Below are positions 15,639 to 17,917 of a stretch of 62,331 nucleotides of DNA, piece after piece. Under the pieces are notes generated by a model that was given only the letters and a program-made list of their open reading frames with translations, made no database searches and was not told the DNA's origin. Numbering within the stretch: the stretch's first letter is position 1; each line of letters starts with the position of its first letter. This DNA comes from Pseudomonadota bacterium (GTDB lineage: Bacteria; Pseudomonadota; Gammaproteobacteria; CALCKW01). Where the stretch lies: contig JBCCUP010000022.1 of assembly GCA_039196715.1 (NCBI GenBank), positions 1 through 62,331 on the forward strand. Reading direction: 5' to 3'. Position numbers and translations under genes: made by a program.

Positions 15639-17414
15639 TCAGTTCTCGGTGGCAGGCAACCGGCGACGCAGGGACAACTCGCGCAGCTGCCGCTCGTCGA
15701 CGTCGCCCGGGGCATCGGTCAGCAGGCAGCTTGCATTCTGCGTCTTCGGAAACGCCATCACGTCGCGGATGCTCTCGGCACCGGCCATCATCATGACCAT
15801 GCGGTCCAGGCCGAAGGCGATGCCCCCGTGCGGCGGCGCCCCGTAGCGCAGCGCGCGCAGCAGAAACCCGAACTTGGCCTCGGCTTCCTCGGCGTCGATG
15901 CCGAGCAGGTCGAGCACGGACGCCTGCATCTCCGGGCTGTGAATCCGGATCGAGCCGCCGCCGATCTCGATGCCGTTGAGCACCATGTCGTAGGCGCGCG
16001 AGAGCGCGTTGCCGGGATCCGCCCGCAACGCTTCGGCATCCACCGAGGGCGCGGTGAACGGGTGGTGCATCGCGCTCCAGCGCTTGTCCCGCTCGTCGTA
16101 CTCGAACATCGGAAAGTCCACGACCCAGACCGGGCACCAGCCGTCGGTGGCGAGCTTCATGTCGTGCCCGACCCGCACGCGCAGCGCGCCGAGGGCGTCG
16201 TTGACCGTGCTGGCGGCGTCGGCGCCAAAGAAGATCAGGTCGCCGTTCTCGGCACCGGTGCGCTCGAGCACACCGCGAAGGGCGGCTTCCGAGAAGAACT
16301 TGACGATCGGCGATTGCAGGCCCTCGACCCCGGCTGCGATGTCGTTGCACTTGATGTACGCGAGGCCCTTCGCGCCGTAGCGGCCGACAAACCCGGTGTA
16401 GCCGTCGATCTCCTTGCGGGTGAGCGCGTTGCCACCCGGCACGCGCAGGGCTGCCACCCGGCCTTTCGGGTCGTTGGCCGGCCCGGCAAAGACCTTGAAG
16501 TCGATGTCGGCAACGAGGTCAGAGACGGTCACGAGTTCGAGCGGCACGCGGAGGTCGGGGCGGTCGACCCCGAAGCGCTCCATCGATTCGGCGTAGGTCA
16601 TGCGCGGAAAGGGGTCGGCGAGGTCGACACCGAGTTGCGTCTTGAACACCTGACGCACCATGCGCTCCATCAGCCCCATGACGTCCTCTTCCTCGACAAA
16701 GGACATCTCGACGTCGAGCTGGGTGAACTCCGGCTGCCGGTCGGCGCGCAGGTCCTCGTCGCGGAAGCAGCGTGCGATCTGGTAGTAGCGGTCCATGCCG
16801 CCCATCATCAGCAGCTGCTTGTACAGCTGCGGCGACTGCGGCAGCGCGTAGAACTGCCCGGGGTGAACCCGGCTCGGCACCAGGTAGTCCCGCGCCCCTT
16901 CGGGCGTGGCGCGCGTCAGCATCGGCGTCTCGACTTCGATGAAGCCGTTGTCGTCGAGCACGCGCCGCATCTCGGCGATGGTGCGATGACGCAGCTTGAG
17001 CCGCTCGACGGCAGCAGGTCGGCGCAAGTCGATGTAACGGTAGCGCAGGCGGTGCTCTTCACCGACCTCGGTGTCATCGAGCTGGAACGGCGGGGTCTCG
17101 CTGCGGTTGAGGATCTGGAGGTCGAGGCCGAGCACTTCGACCTCGCCGGAGCTCAGCTCCGGGTTCACCGTGCCATCGGGCCGCGGCCGCACGCGCCCGG
17201 ACATGCGAATCACGAACTCGTTGCGCAGCTGCTCGGCGAGCGCAAACACCGCCGGCGTGTCGGGGTCGAACACCACCTGCACCAGACCGTCGCGGTCGCG
17301 CAGGTCGACGAAGATCACGCCGCCGTGGTCGCGTCGCTTGTTGACCCAACCGCAGAGTTGGACAGTGTCTCCGACGTGGGTGGCGTTTACCTGGCCACAG
17401 GTTTGGCTGCGCAT
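15639..17414 (-). CDS. aspS: Aspartyl-tRNA synthetase
   Basis: A 591-residue class IIb synthetase (E. coli AspRS 590). Order: N-terminal OB-fold anticodon-binding domain ([19 protein letters not shown], then [17 protein letters not shown]), catalytic motifs 2 ([20 protein letters not shown]) and 3 ([13 protein letters not shown]), with the bacterial GAD insertion between them. I choose ATG 17414 (MRSQTCGQ) because it aligns with the family and has GGAG eleven bases upstream; an ATG at 17435 would add seven residues that come from the terminal repeat of the element next door. Head of the aspS-nudB-yebC-ruvC-ruvA cluster. Its promoter region has been taken up by the nested-palindrome element. 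Confidence 0.97.
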
Positions 17415-17421
17415 GGGTGCT

Positions 17422-17686
17422 AGTGCTCCATCCATTTGTAAACTGCGAGTTCAGTTAGCGTGTCAGCGTTCACAGCAAGGCGCGCCTCGCAGGCCATAGC
17501 CACCCTATGGCCAAGAGGCGCAACGCTGTCAGTGGGCGCTGACACGCTAACCCTGAGGGCGTCCCTGTGGTGTCACGCCGCGTCGTTCCAGCGCGCGACA
17601 CGGGTTCGCCATTGCCTTCGCGCTGCGCCTTGCGGCGACACTCCACAGGGACGCTGAATCCGTAGTTTACAGATGGATGGAGCACT
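17422..17686. repeat. 265-bp nested-palindrome element (MITE-like)
   Basis: Most of the 503-bp gap between aspS and the adenosine-kinase gene is this structure. The outer 23-base inverted repeats (17422-17444 and 17664-17686, AGTGCTCCATCCAT... with one mismatch) enclose two separate inner hairpins: 17454-17551, with perfect 15-base ends GTTAGCGTGTCAGCG / CGCTGACACGCTAAC, a long imperfect stem and a CCATAG-CCAC-CTATGG tip; and 17559-17654, with perfect 12-base ends GCGTCCCTGTGG / CCACAGGGACGC. No coding frame makes sense inside. No clear target-site duplication is visible. It resembles a miniature inverted-repeat transposable element or a folded regulatory RNA/DNA structure. Confidence 0.8.
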
Positions 17687-17815
17687 CGTATCTCAACGGT
17701 TCGCAGGTTCGCGCAGCCGTGCCGGCGCACCCGCCACTCTGGCGCGCAGAACGCACCGTGTCGACTCGACGGGGTCTGGCCGGGCCCGGTCGGCGCCCTG
17801 CTCTGCAGATTCGGG

Positions 17816-17850
17816 GAGCACGGTCGGTCGCGACGCAACCGACCGTGCTC
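17816..17850. promoter_or_regulatory. Perfect 13-bp stem-loop upstream of the kinase gene
   Basis: GAGCACGGTCGGT (17816-17828) and ACCGACCGTGCTC (17838-17850) form a perfect 13-bp stem with a 9-base loop, 68 bp before the GTG at 17918. There is no following T-run. A weak -10-like TAAACT (17854-17859) lies just after it, so it could be an operator or attenuator rather than a terminator. The rest of 17687-17917 shows nothing recognisable. Confidence 0.55.
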
Positions 17851-17917
17851 GGCTAAACTCCGCAATTCTAGCCCGCCAACCGCCACATCTCCAGACCGCC
17901 AACAGGACCTTCATCGC

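Follow-up and report, generated by a model that had tools for sequence, protein, structure and literature searches.

Among the closest described systems is RUP with IS630-Spn1, a non-coding MITE whose movement is attributed to an IS630 transposase acting in trans (PMC2229807). IS630 itself prefers TA in CTAG as its target and duplicates the TA, according to the title of Tenzen and Ohtsubo 1991 cited in PMC2170065, and the ISY100 data presented in PMC2170065 describe the same target and duplication. Here, we followed up an earlier note on a stretch of 62,331 nucleotides (the window), in which a three-palindrome block at 17422-17686 occupies the region upstream of aspS. Given its common ends, TA/CTAG sites, empty sites, IS630-matching terminal repeats and co-occurrence with transposases, we are highly confident that this block is a non-autonomous IS630-type MITE inserted before aspS, most likely mobilised in trans by an IS630-family transposase.

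The block consists of terminal arms around two hairpins (Table 1). The arms, which the earlier note gave as 23-base inverted repeats with one mismatch, indeed differ at a single position in their outer 23 nt but in fact reach 33 nt at 88% complementarity, and are the longest inverted-repeat pair in the whole window. The 2 inner hairpins have the perfect 15-nt and 12-nt ends previously reported (H1 arms 17454-17473/17532-17551; H2 arms 17559-17581/17632-17654). On the left the aspS copy is flanked by TA (17421-17422), and on the right by TC in place of TA, which is a decayed TA. The 267-bp element contains no gene of its own, in line with the absence of an ORF claimed before; the ORFs that cross it start or stop in the flanks. 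As a single strand the block folds far better than expected by chance (RNA z -11.6, DNA z -12.1, with 0/200 shuffles as good), and the predicted fold is a three-way junction with the terminal arms as base and H1 and H2 as branches. An Rfam search of the block gave no match above the gathering score, only sub-threshold chance matches. An integron attC-like reading of the GTTAGC...GCTAAC motifs was rejected, since the two motifs stand in the reverse order to attC and are not retained in other copies.

Table 1. Coordinates of the features at the aspS site.
Feature	Positions	Strand	Basis
aspS, 591 aa from ATG 17412-17414	15639..17414	-	Orthologues in G001 and G003, 89% identical, same start
Probable IS630-type MITE, whole, with flanking dinucleotides	17421..17687	.	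Same ends in own-genome copies and 27 genera; TA/CTAG flanks
Left terminal inverted repeat, L type: ...CTGCGAGTTCAG	17422..17454	+	Family ends match IS630-element ends
Inner hairpin H1 (GTTAGCGTGTCAGCG ... CGCTGACACGCTAAC)	17454..17551	.	Conserved family-wide with compensatory changes
Inner hairpin H2 (GCGTCCCTGTGG ... CCACAGGGACGC)	17559..17654	.	Diverged inverted counterpart of H1; compensatory changes
Right terminal inverted repeat, R type: ...CTACGGATTCAG	17654..17686	-	End comparison among family copies
Likely aspS promoter	17865..17893	-	-35 TGGAGA 17888-17893, 17-bp spacer, -10 TAGAAT 17865-17870; sigma70-like

The earlier note had proposed a search for second copies of the 265-bp unit, and had set against mobility a single copy conserved at one place in all relatives. 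The genome of the window holds 3 more full copies (contigs C74, C14, and C109), giving 4 in total with pairwise identities of 85-92%, together with a solo end on contig C43 and a 33-bp end-to-end remnant on contig C2. Within the class, 369 genomes were sampled, and 32 of them, from 27 genera, gave matches at E ≤ 0.001 with the same ends; only 2 candidates were scored per genome, so that the copy numbers from this search are lower bounds. Copies are found in either orientation and at sites unrelated to one another, and the element is absent before aspS in 2 congeners (G001 and G003). A phylum-wide sample places the family in genomes of a second class as well. Two genomes, G198 and G213, have 63 terminal-repeat ends each, and when GTDB genomes were scanned with a long pattern, most matches came from one MAG, HyVt-540. 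Plasmid and phage collections searched with the element gave no match, and a text search with the end sequences returned, among the matches listed, only unrelated papers and no description of the family. As far as the Rfam and text searches go, this is a so far unlabelled element family of a known kind.

To define the unit and its target, 57 distinct elements with paired ends were extracted from the fetched loci. The canonical unit is 266-269 bp long, while the shortest forms, of 35-61 bp, consist of ends only. TA is present at 45 left and 47 right ends, and at both ends in 35 of the 57 elements, with an end-search pattern that favoured TA at this position; C before the TA (44/57) and G after it (45/57) were not favoured by the pattern. 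The target is TA in CTAG (C^TA^G). No flank duplication longer than TA is present among the 57 elements. Precise empty sites were found for 3 copies, all of them in genomes other than that of the window. One copy (G059:C16) lies inside another repeat, 5 uninterrupted copies of which align across the junction; a second (G059:C21) has its counterpart in G195:C96, which is 94% identical through the junction; and the third (G213:C18) corresponds to the uninterrupted G313:C249. The target dinucleotide in these empty sites differs (AA, CA, and TG), and the TA duplication is therefore deduced from the presence of TA at both ends of filled sites. A further pair, L016 versus G059:C7, was dropped because the presumed empty site holds an element remnant.

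Several smaller observations were also made. The repeat that hosts the G059:C16 copy (L192:482-990) is itself dispersed, measures roughly 180 bp or more and has many copies in G059, G195, and G353. End-only palindromes of 35-59 bp occur in CTAG at L070:1486-1520 (G258), L039:1500-1542 (G059), and L110:465-523 (G197); these are 2 terminal repeats placed nearly back to back, which could have arisen by deletion or could represent the smallest units that move. In addition, two genera of a single family (G198 and G066; loci L093, L098, L101, L102, L105, L205, L206, and L240-L269) share a 22-bp unit, CCAACAGTAGGCGCTTTAGGCG (≤2 mismatches), of which there are about 48 copies. It sits between GCA and A, at several places in the hairpins of the MITE as well as in a few contexts elsewhere, and copies without it read straight through, so that it behaves like a second-level micro-insertion.

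A source of the transposition activity was sought among the genomes that carry the element. A DDE_3 search of 10 MITE-rich genomes identified IS630-type transposases, 2 of which, in G266, are bordered by a similar terminal repeat, and a class-wide search with the G266 transposase revealed a transposase clade in which some elements have MITE-like ends. Two of these, a 1.2-kb element in G265 and a 1.4-kb element in G266, have both matching ends and lie in CTAG, and the IS630 elements of G197, G292, and G181 each have one clear matching end. Over the first 30 bases the IS630-element ends are identical to the MITE ends at 22-28 positions, a level reached by 0-1 of 2000 shuffles. The transposase is assigned to DDE_3 by Pfam; in G265, its second frame belongs to the NCBIfam IS630 family above the cut-off, and its first frame corresponds to the helix-turn-helix part of that family, below the cut-off. 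The MITE is present in 6 of the 11 genomes that have the transposase clade and in 26 of the 358 that lack it (Fisher p = 9e-5, with genomes counted as independent), and the MITE carriers G198, G213, G266, G292, and G197 all have an IS630-type transposase. In the window's own genome, an assembly of 169 contigs, a search for a DDE_3 or related transposase found none; the helper there may have been lost, may be unassembled, or may be a different one.

From these comparisons we infer mobilisation in trans. The MITE (approximately 267 bp) has terminal repeats of the type that IS630-family (Tc1/mariner-type) insertion sequences use. A DDE transposase of the IS630 family, provided in trans, would excise it at these repeats and insert it at a TA, with a preference for CTAG, duplicating the TA. 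A single such event probably placed it in the aspS leader, with the promoter on one side and the start codon 7 nt away on the other. A group of REP-type elements, which the earlier note had listed alongside a MITE-like insertion, would instead mean an array of the REP/BIME or REPIN kind, mobilised by a tyrosine transposase associated with REPs. The palindromic, dispersed nature of the family and the relation of H2 to H1, of which it is a diverged inverted copy, fit such an array, but a canonical unit fixed at 266-269 bp, its long terminal repeats, TA/CTAG flanks and precise empty sites, and end sequences that match DDE (IS630) elements do not, making this origin extremely improbable. The arms belong to a mobile unit, as its terminal repeats. 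A MITE-like insertion is the proposal borne out by several copies with the same ends, TA ends, empty sites and IS630-type terminal repeats.

We also asked how the interior of the IS630-type MITE has evolved. In a pairing analysis of 36 oriented copies, counted as independent, 52 of 81 pairs have changes on both sides, those in H1 and H2 included, and pairing holds in 97.3% of cells, compared with 84.6% after shuffling and 33-47% when the structure is slid. Two-sided change is expected in the terminal arms, because both have to fit one transposase; for the two inner hairpins a different cause is required, either selection on structure or arm-to-arm correction by template switching. Between close copies, H1 changes are mostly one-sided, and two-sided changes build up with distance. 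Wobble-type pairs are biased towards 91 G.T versus 12 A.C in H1 and the other way in H2 (25 G.T versus 40 A.C), an opposition that speaks against selection on one transcript strand. Judged from the aligned copies, the palindromes of the inner hairpins are maintained across the family. This raises the question of whether the hairpins have a function of their own, as a small RNA, a protein-binding site or a replication/transposition hairpin, for which the IS630 ends serve as vehicle; such a function would extend the IS630-MITE explanation and not replace it. The extent of two-sided pairing and the conservation of the core between two classes are what such a function would leave behind. However, template switching between arms can keep palindromes without selection, and the existence of 35-61 bp end-only derivatives implies that copies can persist without the interior. 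We regard an own function as rather unlikely, and hold it equally unlikely that the family is a structured symbiont on IS630-type ends across two classes, with hairpins kept by selection, as opposed to a plain internal-deletion MITE.

At the aspS site, the start codon used by the congeners (protein start MRSQTCG...) lies 7 nt from the terminal arm, which confirms the distance first noted. An in-frame ATG at 17435 inside the arm would add 7 codons to aspS, so that the outer repeat could, as suggested, extend the N-terminus. The element end also brings a GGAG to 11 nt before the aspS ATG, inside the terminal stem. The promoter hexamers were read by eye from an alignment with the upstream regions of G001 and G003: the TAGAAT block is common to all three sequences, and TGGAGA is found 17 bp upstream of it in the window and in G001. 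Seen from aspS, this promoter-like site lies upstream, beyond the element and towards the kinase, which would put the element in the transcribed leader if the promoter is used. The earlier note held that the block has either to carry the aspS promoter or to tolerate it; the block appears to tolerate it, the promoter-like site being conserved in two congeners. With the element the leader measures approximately 440 nt, with the element end over the ribosome-binding region; the leaders of G001 and G003 have no element and measure approximately 80 nt. The comparison uses these two congeners, G002 having been left out as its leader is unreadable in its contig stretch, and the aspS empty site is not base-exact because the leaders have diverged between species.

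These data bear on the remaining proposal of the earlier note, a structured leader RNA, which would here be a fixed structure controlling aspS in the manner of an attenuator or riboswitch. Its very stable fold, the position of its end over the aspS ribosome-binding region and the strong compensatory change across copies are all features of such an RNA. However, the same element occurs at unrelated sites in both orientations, is missing from the congeners' leaders and has no Rfam match, and selection on one RNA strand does not predict a wobble bias on opposite strands in H1 and H2. The absence from congeners and the dispersed copies largely refute a leader RNA, which we consider very unlikely. 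For the inserted MITE, we would expect a neutral or mildly disturbing effect on aspS, via a longer leader and a terminal repeat over the ribosome-binding region. Separately, a strong hairpin at 17807-17859 is located directly downstream of the likely aspS promoter, and hairpins of unrelated sequence are seen by eye at the same place in G001 and G003, which suggests a conserved structure in the native aspS leader. The aspS insertion is not the only one directly in front of a start codon: a copy in G353 (L017:1501-1780) ends at the A of the start codon of a response regulator (CACTA|TGAGTAAGCAA).

Our analysis identifies a widespread, unlabelled gammaproteobacterial repeat family and ties it to a helper clade of IS630 elements. 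Knowledge of the family guards against mistaking palindromic blocks before housekeeping genes for riboswitches or attenuators, and the compensatory evolution inside the element raises the question of why a gene-less transposon keeps its inner palindromes.

Compared by description, RUP with IS630-Spn1 appears to be the precedent for a MITE of the kind at the aspS site: as portrayed in PMC2229807, it likewise has matching IS630 ends and a TA target, but it is a 107-bp element of Streptococcus with a 9-bp terminal repeat, whereas the gammaproteobacterial element has 267 bp, a 33-bp terminal repeat and 2 inner hairpins. The Correia elements (NEMIS) of Neisseria, compared in the same way, share terminal inverted repeats (approximately 24 bp), TA at the ends, and transcripts that fold as long stem-loops; they differ in length (approximately 105-155 bp), and the account of them in PMC2229807 that we drew on does not describe a two-hairpin interior. 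In Candidatus Thiomargarita nelsonii, also a gammaproteobacterium, MITEs are abundant and one type with TA-rich ends has been compared to IS630 and Correia elements (PMC4853749); no parental insertion sequence was found in that study, and the likeness to our element is one of description. With the IS630-family insertion sequences, such as IS630 and ISY100, the MITE shares terminal repeats and TA duplication, and with IS630 the CTAG preference, as far as these are set out in the sources cited above; unlike them, it does not encode a transposase.
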